64,000 bases of DNA from Bacteroidota bacterium (GTDB lineage: Bacteria > Bacteroidota > Bacteroidia > Bacteroidales > JAGONC01), in NCBI GenBank assembly GCA_022711405.1, contig JAKLFC010000019.1, positions 1-64,000 on the forward strand. Direction: 5' to 3'. Below, piece after piece: positions 8,103-64,000 of this stretch. A model generated the notes under the pieces. The model made no database searches. It saw only the letters and a list, made by a program, of their open reading frames with translations, and was not told the origin of the DNA. Within the stretch, counting starts at the first letter, position 1, and the number at the start of each line of letters is the position of its first letter. Made by a program: the position numbers and the translations under genes.

Positions 8103-9185
8103 TTATTCTCCTATGATTTTTGCTTTAAGGACACCAAGGATCTCTTCAGGAGTGTAGATCATTCCTCCCATTCTTCCGTAAAATTCGACGTTAACCCTGC
8201 CTTCCACTGCCAGGCGTACGTCTTCAACCATCTGACCTGAACTGAGTTCGACCGTAAGAATACCCTTCACATGGCCAAGGAGTTCCCGAATCTGTTTAGT
8301 TGGGAAAGGCCAGAGTGTAATAGCTCTTAAAAGGCCAAGCCTAATGCCCTGAGCCCTGGCTATGTCGAGGGCTTTTTGCGCGATCCTGGCACTGGAGCCA
8401 TATGCAACGATCAGGTATTCAGCATCGTCGCAGGCGATTTTTTCACAACGGACCTCTTTTTCCTGGATGGTGGCGTATTTATTCTGCAGCCTGATGTTGC
8501 GCTGTTCCTGGACGTGAGGCTGTAGGTCGAGGGAGGTGATGATGTTCCGTTCCCTGTTCAGTGGTTTGCCTGTAGTGGCCCACGGCGACATTTTGATGAT
8601 CTCTTCTTCAGTCCAGCGGGGGATTGGATCGAATAGTACCACTTTCTCCATCATCTGTCCGATGACCCCGTCGGAAAGGATCATGGCAGGATTGCGGTAT
8701 CTGAAGGCCAGTTCAAAGGCCAGTTTGATAAAGTCCGACATCTCCTGCACTGAGGCAGGCGCCAGAACGATCATCCGGTAATCACCATGGCCTCCTCCCT
8801 TTGTTGCCTGGAAATAGTCGGCCTGCGAAGGCTGGATGGTGCCCAGTCCGGGACCTCCCCTGACCACGTTGACCAATACGCAGGGAAGCTCTGCCCCTGC
8901 GATGTAGGAGACCCCTTCCATCATCAGGCTGACTCCGGGGCTTGAAGAGGATGTCATCACCTTTTTGCCTGTGGCGGCAGCGCCATACACCATGTTGATG
9001 GAAGCTACTTCACTTTCGGCCTGAAGGACGACCATTCCGGTCCGCTCATGCGGCTTTTCGGCCATCAGGTATTCAATGACTTCCGACTGAGGTGTGATGG
9101 GGTACCCGAAATAGGCATCCACACCGGCGCGTATTGCAGCTTCTCCAATCGCCTCGTTGCCTTTCATTAAACGTAATTCACCCAT
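8103..9185 (-). CDS. vorB: 2-oxoacid:ferredoxin oxidoreductase, alpha subunit (VorB-like)
   Basis: 360 aa from ATG 9185 (the codon at 9191 is TTG and less likely). Contains the pyrimidine-binding core GYPITPQSEVIEYL (residues about 27-40) and QAESEVASINMVYGAAATGKK, then SSSPGVSLMMEGVSYIAGAELP, all typical of the 3-methyl-2-oxobutanoate:ferredoxin oxidoreductase alpha chain. The C-terminal domain II is complete. Sits between the ferredoxin (7-bp gap) and beta (4-bp gap) genes, giving the order delta-alpha-beta-gamma of four-subunit enzymes. Confidence 0.93.
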   Translation of the reverse strand: MGELRLMKGNEAIGEAAIRAGVDAYFGYPITPQSEVIEYLMAEKPHERTGMVVLQAESEVASINMVYGAAATGKKVMTSSSSPGVSLMMEGVSYIAGAELPCVLVNVVRGGPGLGTIQPSQADYFQATKGGGHGDYRMIVLAPASVQEMSDFIKLAFELAFRYRNPAMILSDGVIGQMMEKVVLFDPIPRWTEEEIIKMSPWATTGKPLNRERNIITSLDLQPHVQEQRNIRLQNKYATIQEKEVRCEKIACDDAEYLIVAYGSSARIAQKALDIARAQGIRLGLLRAITLWPFPTKQIRELLGHVKGILTVELSSGQMVEDVRLAVEGRVNVEFYGRMGGMIYTPEEILGVLKAKIIGE

Positions 9186-59343: not shown

Positions 59344-59361
59344 GGGACGTTAGCTCAGCTG
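59344..59361 (+). repeat. Duplicated 5' end of tRNA-Val followed by a hairpin
   Basis: 18 bases identical to the first 18 of the tRNA at 59406 (acceptor strand, D-stem and part of the D-loop), then TCCTGAG-TTTT-CTCAGGA (59362-59379), a perfect 7-bp hairpin. It cannot fold into a tRNA. It could be the scar of an integration or a tandem duplication. Confidence 0.8.
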
Positions 59362-59405
59362 TCCTGAGTTTTCTCAGGATGACGAGCGGATAAAATCTAA
59401 ATAAT

Positions 59406-59480
59406 GGGACGTTAGCTCAGCTGGTTTAGAGCGCATGCTTGACAGGCATGAGGTCGACAGTTCGATCCTGTCACGCCCCA
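59406..59480 (+). tRNA. tRNA-Val (anticodon GAC)
   Basis: 75 nt cloverleaf. Anticodon arm CATGC-TTGACAG-GCATG gives GAC; T arm GACAG-TTCGATC-CTGTC; D arm GCTC...GAGC. Acceptor GGGACGT pairs with ACGCCCC except for an A4:C69 mismatch. CCA is not encoded. Followed by a rho-independent terminator at 59491-59521. Confidence 0.95.
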
Positions 59481-59490
59481 CAACCCGAAA

Positions 59491-59780: not shown

Positions 59781-59828
59781 TGATAATTATGCAGAGCGAA
59801 TTATTCAGTTGTATTTATAAACGACCTA

Positions 59829-59964
59829 GGACTTCTCAGGCGGGGCACCCACACGGCGAAAATGGCGTGCGAAGCAAATGAAAATCTGTTTGAGCCCCGA
59901 CTGAAAGGAGGGGCGAGTTATTTTCATTTAGCCATTGAGCCGTATGTGGGTCGCCGAGAAGTCC
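59829..59964. ncRNA. Candidate 136-nt elongated hairpin element
   Basis: Six colinear stems: GGACTTCTC+GGCG (59829-59842) with CGCC+GAGAAGTCC (59952-59964); ACCCACA (59847-59853) with TGTGGGT (59945-59951); CGGC (59854-59857) with GCCG (59939-59942); ATGGC (59862-59866) with GCCAT (59931-59935); AAATGAAAAT (59876-59885) with ATTTTCATTT (59920-59929); GCCCC (59894-59898) with GGGGC (59910-59914). Every pair is Watson-Crick. On the plus strand it is followed by a T-rich stretch. It could be an ncRNA, a single-stranded-DNA recognition hairpin (origin or transfer) or a MITE-like insertion. Confidence 0.55.
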
Positions 59965-59983
59965 AGTCTAGATTTTTCTTTTA

Positions 59984-60017: not shown

Positions 60018-60045
60018 ATACTTAAATATTTGTGAACAAAAAAAA

Positions 60046-60068
60046 GGTGCGGCCGTTATGGCCGCACC
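60046..60068 (-). terminator. Rho-independent terminator of the ArdC-like gene
   Basis: GGTGCGGCC-GTTAT-GGCCGCACC: 9-bp perfect G/C-rich stem. On the minus strand it is followed by eight T (plus-strand A run 60038-60045). It lies 17 bp past the stop at 60086. Confidence 0.9.
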
Positions 60069-60085: not shown

Positions 60086-60415
60086 TCAGGACTTGGCCTG
60101 ATCCACTACCTGGGCATTGGAGTACAGGTAGCGTACCGGAAAATAGGTATAGGACTTTCCGTATTCGTCCGTCCGCTCAACCGGGCGACCCCAGATGAGG
60201 AAAGGTCTGGAGTTCTTCTTAACGACCTTTCCGGCCTTGACCCAGCCTTCATAGGTGTTGAAGATGGTGTGCTTTGCTGTGGCATAGCTCGCCAGCAGGG
60301 CGTCATTGACGGTTTTGAATTCACCAGCGGTGATTTTCGGTCTTAAGCTCTGGGTTAAGACTTTCAATGATGCTCTTTGAGCTGCGATGGCAGTGGTGTT
60401 TTCTGTTGCATTCAT
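60086..60415 (-). CDS. Small protein resembling the ArdC N-terminal ssDNA-binding domain
   Basis: 109 aa. The C-terminal half, FNTYEGWVKAGKVVKKNSRP then FLIWGRPV...YFPVRYLYSNAQV, follows the pattern of the N-terminal domain of ArdC/LtrC antirestriction proteins (W...G..V.KG...I..W, then F..SNAQ), but the usual Gly is Asn and no metallopeptidase domain follows. Such single-domain proteins are common on plasmids, phages and integrated elements. Strong terminator after the stop; the 5' side shares the R1 repeat (60494-60550) with the next small gene. Function unproven. Confidence 0.65.
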   Translation of the reverse strand: MNATENTTAIAAQRASLKVLTQSLRPKITAGEFKTVNDALLASYATAKHTIFNTYEGWVKAGKVVKKNSRPFLIWGRPVERTDEYGKSYTYFPVRYLYSNAQVVDQAKS

Positions 60416-60493
60416 GGCAATTGGTTTTGTGCAGCCGTGTAAGGGCTACTGGTTATTAAAAAAAATTACGCCAGTAAGCTCCACGAGCAGGAT

Positions 60494-60550
60494 AACAATA
60501 GGTCAAGGAGATCGGTCAGCTTTCTTTAGAAAATGACGAGACCCTACGGG
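60494..60550. repeat. R1 repeat, copy A
   Basis: 57 bp, of which the first 31 are identical to 61212-61242 and most of the rest is conserved (AGAAAATGACGA, ACGGG). Contains a small TTTC-TTTA-GAAA hairpin; copy B has TTTC-GCA-GAAA, the stem kept and the loop changed. Its left end lies 79 bp from the start of the ArdC-like gene, so it may be a shared 5' control region, or the start of a plus-strand RNA ending at R2. Confidence 0.8.
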
Positions 60551-60571
60551 CGGATATACAATTAAATATCC

Positions 60572-60712
60572 AACATACGAACATACGAAGGTGAAGGCGA
60601 TGTTAAAGTAGAAGTCGATTTTTGAATTGAAGGAAGAATTCTAAGATCTGCGATCCAATCGCAATTCTCCCTCGCCTTTCAGTTCTACTTCAACTTCGAA
60701 TGTTCGTATGTT
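60572..60712. repeat. Long inverted repeat inside unit A
   Basis: Arms of 25 bp with two mismatches (60572-60596 and 60688-60712), outermost 13 bp perfect (AACATACGAACAT / ATGTTCGTATGTT). An inner structure AGAATT...GCGAT-CCA-ATCGC-AATTCT spans 60635-60668. Unit B has no counterpart, so this is an insertion between R1 and R2 or was lost from B. Confidence 0.75.
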
Positions 60713-60726
60713 CTGAGATCCTCTCC

Positions 60727-60774
60727 CCGTCCTTGACGGATTTTTAGACTGCGAAGTAACTTCGCGGAGTTTTT
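60727..60774 (+). terminator. R2 repeat, copy A: tandem terminator-like hairpins
   Basis: CCGTC-CTT-GACGG then ATTTTT (60727-60745), and GCGAAG-TAA-CTTCGC, GGAG, TTTTT (60751-60774). The block 60730-60769 matches 61316-61355 at 35 of 40 positions. Two hairpins each followed by T-runs on the plus strand suggest the end of a plus-strand transcript beginning near R1. Confidence 0.65.
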
Positions 60775-60936
60775 ATTTGAATAAAAAGTAGCCCAACCTG
60801 CGGTGAACAAGTATAAATGTGTGTAGGGTAAAAACTGCATTGAATGCATTTATTTGTACTGATATGCTTTTAAATGGATTGGCAAAAAGGATAGCCTTCA
60901 TTTTTCTTCGGGGAGTGAAGCATGAGCATAAAAAAA

Positions 60937-60962
60937 GGGGCTGCCGGTCATCCGGCAGCCCC
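60937..60962 (-). terminator. Rho-independent terminator of the 58-aa gene
   Basis: GGGGCTGCCGG-TCAT-CCGGCAGCCCC: perfect 11-bp stem. Minus-strand T-run follows (plus-strand AAAAAAA 60930-60936). It is 6 bp past the stop at 60969. Confidence 0.92.
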
Positions 60963-60968
60963 TGGGAG

Positions 60969-61145
60969 TTATTCGGAGAGAAGGTCAATTAGCATCTGGC
61001 GTGTAAGACCATAGCTCATTGCTTCTGAAAAGGTGCAGTCGGCAAGCTCGCAGAGCTTTTCATACGGCTGGAATGACAGATAATAAGGATTGTACAGTGT
61101 GGTGGCATCTGTCGTGCGATCTGATGTTAAGGCAATGTGTGTCAT
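60969..61145 (-). CDS. Small protein, unknown function
   Basis: 58 aa from ATG 61145. Sequence is polar and helix-prone at the end (CELADCTFSEAMSYGLTRQM), with Tyr-rich NPYYLSFQPY in the centre; I recognise no family. Evidence that it is a gene: a strong terminator directly after the stop, and the same R1 block 67 bp upstream of its start as upstream of the ArdC-like gene. A longer frame to 61199 has no support. Confidence 0.6.
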   Translation of the reverse strand: MTHIALTSDRTTDATTLYNPYYLSFQPYEKLCELADCTFSEAMSYGLTRQMLIDLLSE

Positions 61146-61211
61146 GGCTTTAAATTTTTGAAAGTGAAACAATAAAAAATTTGACGCTGTAAAACACACA
61201 CGAGCCGGCCG

Positions 61212-61267
61212 AACAATAGGTCAAGGAGATCGGTCAGCTTTCGCAGAAAATGACGAAACCCAACGGG
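61212..61267. repeat. R1 repeat, copy B
   Basis: 56 bp, partner of 60494-60550 with 31 leading bases identical. Upstream of and divergent from the 58-aa gene. Confidence 0.8.
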
Positions 61268-61315
61268 TAACCAGGACGGTAACAGGAATCAGGGGAGAAA
61301 ACCGTCTATGTGTTA

Positions 61316-61355
61316 TCCTTTACGGATTTTTCGACGGCGAAGTAACTTTGCGTAG
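61316..61355 (+). repeat. R2 repeat, copy B
   Basis: Matches 60730-60769 at 35 of 40 positions. The GCGAAG-TAA-CTTtGC stem has one mismatch here and the first stem is reduced to ACGG/CCGT, so the terminator quality is lower than in copy A. The R1-R2 distance is 48 bp, against 179 bp in A. Confidence 0.7.
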
Positions 61356-61457: not shown

Positions 61458-62894
61458 TTATTTTTTAATCCACTTTCCCGAATAATAAGCCTTTTTACCA
61501 GAAATAATTCGATAATAATACAAACCATTCGCTAGTTTTGAAGTATTAAGCACCAAATATCCCATCGAAAAATGTTTAGAAACGACATTTCGTCCACAAT
61601 GATCGTACATTTCAAATATGCCATCCGATAGTCCGCATTCAAGATAAAGCTTTTGGCTTCCTGGATTTGGATAAATAAGAAATGAGAATACAACAGGTTT
61701 ATCGTTTTCATCAATATTTACTATTAAACCCTGGTCATTAACTTTCACGATTATGGCATCCCTTTCCTGGTTAGGATTATTGCGCCAATCCCAGCAGGTA
61801 CCGGTAATAAGACAGCCACCATCGCTTGTGGCAAGAACATCAGAAAGAACATACAATCCGAATTTACCAAAATAAAAAGACCAGTTTAAATCACAAAATC
61901 GATTTATATTATAGACGCCAAACCAGCTGTCAATCTGCTCAAATTCATAGTCAGGATAATTTGATGTACCGGCCAAAAATATAGTATCTTGTGAATGACA
62001 GTCAAGACGGTAGGACCAATCCGATGTGTCTGATTTACCAAATGTCCCACCAGCTATCCTTTGACCCATTTGATTAAATATGCCAACACCAAAATCCTCT
62101 ATAATAGCTGGGAACTCAAAACCCACTGCACATCTGGCATATGTGCTATCGGTCAGACTCTGTGTGTCGGTATAAAATATCAATGTATCATCCATTGGCC
62201 TTGCAAATACGATCCCTTCGTATTCCAGATCATAATTTATTTGGCAAATCGTATCAAATCCCCCCAGGTGATAACCCTGGATTGCAGGAAGTTCGACAAT
62301 TTTTGTGTAATAGTTCCTTTCGATCGTTCCCCGTTTTATGATACCGTTAACTGGATTTAATTCCCAAACGACATTATGGGATTCACTGCCACTAAGAGCG
62401 CCTTCCGTGCCAATAAAGACCAGGTTATCCTGACGGTTCACAATACAACTATAAAATGCCCAACCGGTGTCTGCATCGAAGATCACTGTTGGTTGGAACA
62501 CTTCCAGATCATCGGATATAAATCCGTACATTAAACCGGGATGACCAACATTGGTTTTATCGGTAATCGTTGACCAAAAGAACGTATTTTGTTGGTATTG
62601 AAACAAATTTAAACTGGCAATATAGTAGAATCTTGACTCATCCAATAAAACGGAATCAATACAGTTTCCAAAGGAATCCAATTTAAAAATGATATCGGAA
62701 TAATAAGAATGCATTTGGTTTGGATAATATTCACCTCTGTAAATATGTAGTAAATAATCACCAGTCGGTAATTCATAGGGAGAATCTGCAATATCATCCA
62801 AAGAAGTACCTATAGTCGATACGAAAGTCTGGGAATATAATCCCCAAGGGATGAACAAGAATACGAATTTTAACAGCCCAGCTAATCGGAACAT
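61458..62894 (-). CDS. Secreted protein with T9SS type A sorting domain
   Basis: 478 aa from ATG 62894, at a signal peptide (MFRLAGLLKFVFLFIPWGLYSQ). The long middle is beta-rich with repeated Asp/Gly/Trp segments, resembling beta-propeller or Kelch-like secreted proteins, but no repeat is clean enough to name. The C-terminus has YPNPGSQKLYLECGLSDG then FEMYDHCGRNVV and LANGLYYYRIISGKKAYYSG, a standard T9SS sorting domain ending in Lys-Lys. Clearly AT-richer than genes before 59 kb. Confidence 0.85.
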   Translation of the reverse strand: MFRLAGLLKFVFLFIPWGLYSQTFVSTIGTSLDDIADSPYELPTGDYLLHIYRGEYYPNQMHSYYSDIIFKLDSFGNCIDSVLLDESRFYYIASLNLFQYQQNTFFWSTITDKTNVGHPGLMYGFISDDLEVFQPTVIFDADTGWAFYSCIVNRQDNLVFIGTEGALSGSESHNVVWELNPVNGIIKRGTIERNYYTKIVELPAIQGYHLGGFDTICQINYDLEYEGIVFARPMDDTLIFYTDTQSLTDSTYARCAVGFEFPAIIEDFGVGIFNQMGQRIAGGTFGKSDTSDWSYRLDCHSQDTIFLAGTSNYPDYEFEQIDSWFGVYNINRFCDLNWSFYFGKFGLYVLSDVLATSDGGCLITGTCWDWRNNPNQERDAIIVKVNDQGLIVNIDENDKPVVFSFLIYPNPGSQKLYLECGLSDGIFEMYDHCGRNVVSKHFSMGYLVLNTSKLANGLYYYRIISGKKAYYSGKWIKK

Positions 62895-62941
62895 GATTTC
62901 TTTAATAGTAGAAAGAAACAATAACAACCTGTTCCTAAAAT

Positions 62942-63988
62942 TTATTCAGTTGACAGGGGTATGCAAGTTATTCTAACATCGACACATACCATGTAATGAT
63001 AATTGCAAACATAAATACCTCCAGCACCCCACCAAATGCAGTCATCAAACTCAATATATGGTACCGGCAAATTATGTATGGTACATTTATATGTATATCG
63101 ATTATCATATTGCCCAGTATGTCGAATATCATCCAAGACTTCCTTATAAGCATGCAAATAATTATTCAATTCATTAGTATTTAAATATTCACAACTAGTA
63201 TTAGCCCAAAAAATGTTTTGATATACAAAACTAGTATTCCATCCAACGGAATACCATGGATTCACAAATTCAACAAAAGGAAATCCGCTATTACAGTCAC
63301 ACCAAAGTACGGGATTATGAGGATTAAGTTTTACAGTCATTGCTGAACAAGCATTTGGATTTTGGTCTTCACATGAACTTAACGAAGTTCCATTTTCAAA
63401 ATCAATTGGATCTTCCCATGGATTTATAACCATTGTCCAGCAACCCATAAACTCACCCCAGGTACCAAGGGTGTAATCTACGCTGAATTCTGTCATGTTT
63501 TCATCAAAACCGACGATCTGAATCTGAATGGATATAACAAGACTATCGGCCATATTCAGATTATTCATCTCATTCTCAAGATCCTGATATTTTTGCATCA
63601 TTTCAGTTCCAGAAATAATCGGATTGCCCTCACCATCAAAATCAACTATGGATAATGTAAAACCCGATTTTTTGTCACAGCAGTAGACTACTGTTGAATC
63701 CTTGAGAAAGCATATTTCTTCGTCATTTAATAAAGATGTTTCCATCTCATATCTGGCTAGCGCGGCCGATTTATCTTCAAAAACAATATCTGATTTTAGA
63801 TCACTTTGGTAAGTTTTGTATTGTTCTCTAAAACTTATTATTAGATTATATCTATCATGGGCATCATCAGAGGGCAGGAATGCATTAAGTTTATCAATAT
63901 TTCCTTCATTATTGATAGAAAGATTATTAGTAATATTATCATTTTTGTTGCAAGAAGCAATAAGAGTGGTTGTTAAAATTAATAACAT
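62942..63988 (-). CDS. Predicted lipoprotein, 5' end uncertain at the window edge
   Basis: 348 aa within the window. A hydrophobic MLLILTTTLIA and lipobox ASC start it, but there are no basic residues before the hydrophobic core, and the frame stays open to 64000; the true start may lie up to a few codons outside. The mature part is Cys-rich (at least ten Cys, several in DCIWWGAGG, CDCNSGF and CCDKKSG), acidic and Asn-rich. I recognise no family. AT-rich like its neighbour, same strand, 47 bp apart. Confidence 0.7.
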   Translation of the reverse strand: MLLILTTTLIASCNKNDNITNNLSINNEGNIDKLNAFLPSDDAHDRYNLIISFREQYKTYQSDLKSDIVFEDKSAALARYEMETSLLNDEEICFLKDSTVVYCCDKKSGFTLSIVDFDGEGNPIISGTEMMQKYQDLENEMNNLNMADSLVISIQIQIVGFDENMTEFSVDYTLGTWGEFMGCWTMVINPWEDPIDFENGTSLSSCEDQNPNACSAMTVKLNPHNPVLWCDCNSGFPFVEFVNPWYSVGWNTSFVYQNIFWANTSCEYLNTNELNNYLHAYKEVLDDIRHTGQYDNRYTYKCTIHNLPVPYIEFDDCIWWGAGGIYVCNYHYMVCVDVRITCIPLSTE

Positions 63989-64000
63989 AAGATGGTAAAC

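Follow-up and report, generated by a model that had tools for sequence, protein, structure and literature searches.

Repeated leaders upstream of small genes in a Bacteroidota genome: candidate hairpin-dependent promoters

Promoters of the Frpo/ssi type, described from conjugative plasmids of E. coli, form by folding of single-stranded DNA and switch on establishment genes early (PMC9849209, PMC11541004). Experiments have established single-stranded DNA promoters on plasmids of Proteobacteria, and others have been predicted in leading regions elsewhere; a full-text literature search, whose coverage leaves out most subscription journals, returned no report of one in Bacteroidota. The promoters of phage N4, used by the virion RNA polymerase, also need a DNA hairpin; these hairpins are short and form on supercoiled duplex. 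A phage moron is a small gene that stands alone beside phage structural genes and brings its own promoter region and terminator. The radC RNA motif (RF01754) is associated with anti-restriction and integrase genes. It is listed for Proteobacteria (PMC2864571). The promoter consensus of Bacteroides is TAnnTTTG at -7, with TTTG near -33 (PMC7366714).

The window, the whole 64,000-nucleotide stretch of Bacteroidota DNA analyzed here, contains two units that share the order terminator, minus-strand gene, R1, spacer, R2, as the original prediction described. Part coordinates were read by hand from the window sequence, and all statements about structure are predictions. In unit A, gene A (60086..60415, minus strand) encodes a 109 amino acid protein that profile and protein comparison indicate to be like the N-terminal domain of ArdC (anti-restriction type), and its intrinsic terminator lies at 60038..60068 on the minus strand (GGTGCGGCC/GGCCGCACC, then a T run). 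R1 occupies 60494..60524 (plus strand; repeat comparison and genome search), the 5′ arm of the predicted template-strand hairpin 60487..60509 (plus strand, mostly inside R1; inverted repeat and covariation), the variable, self-complementary apex 60544..60729 (placed by folding), and R2 60730..60769 (plus strand, with the 3′ arm at 60730-60752). In unit B, the corresponding features, on the same strands and identified in the same way, are gene B (60969..61145), its intrinsic terminator (60930..60962, an inverted repeat in the sequence), the 5′ arm (61204..61227), R1 (61212..61242), a variable apex placed by folding and leader comparison (61268..61315), and R2 (61316..61355, with the 3′ arm at 61316-61338).

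The repeated cassette is evident from R1, which is identical at 31 of 31 positions between the units, the 23-nt block directly after it (91% identity), and R2 (88% identity over 40 nt). The spacer between R1 and R2 is not conserved in sequence, and several versions are strongly self-complementary. No similarity was seen between proteins A and B, again as first proposed. Gene B, earlier given as 76 amino acids, most likely encodes 58, because a start at ATG 61145 is common to all three B copies. Elsewhere in the window, pieces at 59813-59977 are near-identical to DNA adjoining a group II intron match (RF02005) on contig C9 and look like a remnant. The region 59347-59481 holds a tRNA-Val gene and, in front of it, a repeat of the gene's first 20 or so bases, which resembles an insertion site.

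The genome of the window contains at least nine leaders, each preceding A, B, or RadC, three genes that are unrelated to one another. R1 with up to three mismatches occurs eight times in the genome and not once for the reversed control, which excludes chance and places R1 beyond the two units of the window. The ninth copy, more divergent, precedes radC on contig C10, and one additional copy is present in G001, a genome of the same genus. All R1 copies lie 5′ of A, B, or a short RadC gene in constant orientation relative to it. The idea of one control cassette carrying interchangeable small genes is thus supported, with three types of gene and no fewer than nine copies in this genome. An R2 at C5:10440 is followed by no gene of this set. 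In a sampled distribution, R1 is absent from 147 of the 149 genomes searched, and it is also absent from the viral contigs searched; ten matches to the exact R1 core in contigs of other phyla were taken as chance 19-mers.

The order of the genes on contig C11 (the window and just beyond) is A, B, two cargo genes, RadC, and on contig C10 it is RadC, cargo, B, A, followed by phage portal-like, DUF6712, and tape-measure genes and, beyond the phage genes, a gene read by eye as an integrase. One end of contig C8 carries RadC and the beginning of a gene for an AAA ATPase, and one end of contig C9 carries A, B, and the rest of an ATPase gene, so these ends may be one locus split by assembly. Another A copy, at the end of contig C2, adjoins integrase- and primase-like genes (named from their sequence only). 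Other RadC genes of G001 and G002 have different upstream DNA. An A homologue in a prophage of G006 is without such a leader; its gene strand carries, at a greater distance upstream, a TAACTTTG box that looks like an ordinary duplex one. A Druantia DruE-like helicase and pieces of AAA_15/OLD-type ATPases are among the cargo close to RadC and B (L011:2-5278, 8718-9107; L009:8445-9479). Between B and RadC there are a sorting-signal protein gene and a lipoprotein-like gene (window 61458-64000; L010:1332-4034), oriented opposite to the A/B/RadC trio in both loci.

The genes behind the leaders include ArdC-N-like and RadC genes, and A and RadC are of kinds present on mobile DNA entering new hosts. 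Protein A itself matches the ArdC-N profile PF08401 weakly, below the cut-off (E=0.096), and is 33% identical (E=6e-17) to a protein of phage contig L111 that passes this cut-off. Protein searches found no homologue of A in plasmids and one match in phages, from a Flavobacterium phage (32.5% identical, covering 66% of the query). Gene B has no protein family match above cut-off and was not found outside G000 among the 31 genomes searched.

R1 and R2 were originally seen as separate conserved blocks. Their conservation stands; their separateness does not, as together they form a single imperfect inverted repeat, one block in each arm, that can be followed for about 60 nt. The arms enclose a small conserved hairpin along with some 50 to 200 nt of variable sequence, which is often self-complementary. 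Over the innermost 23 nt of the arms, 97.5% of cells are paired in the A, B, and RadC versions, and pairing falls to 32-50% in slid registers. Among these leaders three pairs are changed on both sides, in nine cells, and the covariation score was reached by 0 of 500 shuffles; measures that count pairs or pair types were not above shuffles (213/500). The alignment was edited manually, with one bulged base deleted from the B sequences and an arbitrary GAAA set between the arms; it comprises a small number of related sequences, and the structure under test was itself derived from them. Prediction and covariation indicate that a stem-loop can form in the single template strand. Long imperfect hairpins of GAAGG/TAGAAG-like words recur between genes (window 60573-60725, L054 near 6300, L047 downstream of A), some of them inside leaders. 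An integron attC identity was set aside, as the site is 5′ of the gene and core motifs are absent by eye.

Motif search identified a promoter-like element in R2. In unit A it consists of a -33-like TTG (60733-60735) and a -7-like TAACTTCG (60757-60764), one base off TAnnTTTG, and in unit B of a -33-like CCTTT (61317-61321) and a -7-like TAACTTTG (61343-61350), all on the plus strand. R2 of the RadC leaders reads TTG-N21-TAACTTTG, the B leaders have CCTTT (in place of CCTTG) with TAACTTTG, the three G000 A leaders have TTG with TAACTTCG, and the A leaders of G001 and G002 have TAACTTTG. Every leader thus carries a -7 box on the template strand, and the search found TAnnTTTG on the gene strand of none. 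The pattern CCTT[GT]-N20-23-TAnnTT[TC]G occurs in the 64 kb at the two R2s only. All nine leaders are in the top 11 of 43 promoter-like sites whose upstream complement includes -33, a subset of the 74 promoter-like sites in 237 kb.

In duplex DNA, this consensus-like R2 promoter would point away from the gene. We propose that the leader of R1, spacer, and R2 is a hairpin-dependent, Frpo/ssi-like promoter for the Bacteroidota primary sigma factor, a reading to which we give about even weight. When the template strand is single-stranded (during conjugative entry or replication) or extruded as a cruciform, R1 would pair with R2. Folding would make the -33 element double-stranded, and the strand facing the -7 box would match it poorly. 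With the R2 arm of this folded template strand serving as non-template and the R1 arm as template, the geometry would direct RNA polymerase across R1 and on into gene A, B, or radC. The predicted promoter boxes, which resemble the Bacteroides consensus, are rebuilt in the modeled folded strand and directed at the gene. In predicted DNA folds of all ten leaders, the -33 element pairs with the 5′ arm (R1; probability 0.61-1.0), and the -7 box takes little part in the arm duplex (0.01-0.27) but has some local pairing. The proposal draws on the observed inverted repeat, arm covariation, where the promoter motif lies and which way it points, recurrence in a second family, and gene repertoire; transcription of the folded form, the timing of folding, and action on entry are steps that we infer. 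The layout suggests that a DNA hairpin turns such genes on in mobile DNA of Bacteroidota, as happens on some E. coli plasmids.

A second leader family came to light by following a single relative; the number of its members reflects sampling, in about 390 genomes of the order, rather than a census. A distant radC in G012 has a leader with a different apex (AATCTCCAC...TTCGGGTAGTATT) and a layout identical to that of the window-type leaders. By eye, GGAGAT and ACCC-GAAG are common to both families. Leaders of the second family occur in Bacteroidales plasmids, conjugative elements, and phage contigs, upstream of radC, ardC, and A-like genes, the last in phage contigs. A 46-kb Phocaeicola massiliensis plasmid has them before radC and before a full ArdC, the ArdC leader being without a box. 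Another lies in a mobilizable insertion of the conjugative transposon CTn214 without a matching -7 box, and one in a small contig with a Mob_Pre relaxase also lacks the box. Of 18 non-redundant leaders, 12 carry a box at a distance of 54-66 nt from the apex; in control windows of equal width the number is 0 or 1. The template strand folds beyond dinucleotide-shuffle prediction in 19 of 21 (mean z -1.55). In the viral-contig leaders L108 and L111-L115, the -7 box itself is mostly paired with the other arm. Second-family leaders often precede a gene for a small protein whose motif resembles LNKGxNSGKP (L099, L101, L105, L117, L118, L127).

Several observations count against the hairpin-promoter reading. 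The boxes depart from consensus in the three G000 A leaders (TAACTTCG) and in B (CCTTT). Gene A is intact in G001 and G002 despite a lost R1, so it can persist without the fold. The C10 copy adjoins phage portal and tail genes, and phage contigs hold several second-family members; because phage DNA enters as a duplex, a cruciform or replication intermediate would be needed for the hairpin there. A profile search for one relaxase family, PF03432, found none in the genome, and no leading region or transfer origin was located. In some second-family leaders (e.g., L096), a plain duplex promoter may serve a divergent gene. The advantage of the template strand in folding, a mean z of -0.45 in window-type leaders, is mostly composition, and we rejected this asymmetry as support in those leaders.

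The leaders are conserved, foldable, and directly upstream of start codons, features that would also suit a structured 5′ leader of a gene-sense RNA. Such a leader would regulate A, B, and radC at translation or termination, in a context comparable to that of the proteobacterial radC RNA motif. The arms could pair in such an RNA too, but it gives no reason for both leader families to retain a TAnnTTTG box on the other strand. The template strand also folds better than the gene strand in 10 of 10 window-type leaders, where composition may be the cause, and in 18 of 21 of the second family. An Rfam search of the leaders at gathering and relaxed thresholds gave nothing above a family's gathering score, and the RF01754 covariance model had no match at E<=10 in the genome. 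We consider a leader RNA unlikely.

R1 is nearly invariant in sequence, beyond what pairing alone demands, as would be expected if the inverted repeat were a duplex-DNA operator bound by a dimeric regulator of the mobile element for joint control of the genes. The arms, however, change together with pairing kept, and they stand about 100 to 220 bases apart across an interval that is partly variable and often self-complementary. The gene strand also offers no recognizable TAnnTTTG promoter to regulate, and we regard an operator as quite unlikely.

Identical anatomy would serve a single-strand initiation site, at which RNA polymerase or primase primes the complementary strand on the folded strand and the gene is incidental. 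The title of a 1997 paper by Masai and Arai, cited in PMC11541004, describes Frpo for both transcription and priming. Nearly every copy precedes the same small gene set in the same relative orientation, though, for which priming alone would have no need, and the probability that we assign to a pure initiation site is small.

The original prediction also had a small RNA running from R1 to an R2 terminator, divergent from each gene; R2 of the A and RadC copies does end in a hairpin and T run and unit A folds well from R1 to R2 (z -4.6), but unit B as RNA folds no better than shuffles (z -0.38), no consensus TAnnTTTG box is seen by eye before R1 on the plus strand, and the leader's promoter-like element sits in R2, past the supposed RNA body, making such an RNA very improbable. 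R2 is terminator-like in the A and RadC leaders, as was claimed, but the second family keeps TAnnTTTG without an evident terminator.

If the hairpin-dependent promoter is real, a common gut phylum has its own version of these elements, recognizable by sequence. The leader would then mark genes switched on by mobile DNA during cell entry and give a route to listing candidate anti-defense genes such as B; its presence in phages would need an account of hairpin formation in duplex DNA. More tentatively, and with some doubt, we suggest that conjugative elements and duplex-DNA phages of Bacteroidota have a common fold-back promoter class for the host primary sigma factor. Such promoters would be silent towards the gene in duplex and active when single-stranded or in a cruciform, so that anti-restriction genes would fire on entry.

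Among the described systems, the radC RNA motif RF01754 is tied by its name to radC, one of the genes behind the leaders. The C10 copies resemble phage morons in adjoining phage structural genes, with a predicted promoter there, but the other loci are not beside phage genes as far as read, and the promoter would be a hairpin. Frpo/ssi promoters of F, ColIb-P9, and other conjugative plasmids are stem-loops in the non-coding DNA that precedes anti-restriction or establishment genes; they occur in several copies per element, and folding of the strand rebuilds their promoter boxes (PMC9849209, PMC11541004), features that we see or predict in the leaders as well. In contrast to their -35/-10 boxes, the leaders have Bacteroidota -33/-7 boxes; the window-type -7 box is mostly outside the arm duplex, the apex hairpin is variable, and one copy lies in a prophage. 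Like the promoters of phage N4, the leaders would require a hairpin, but their boxes resemble those of the host sigma factor.
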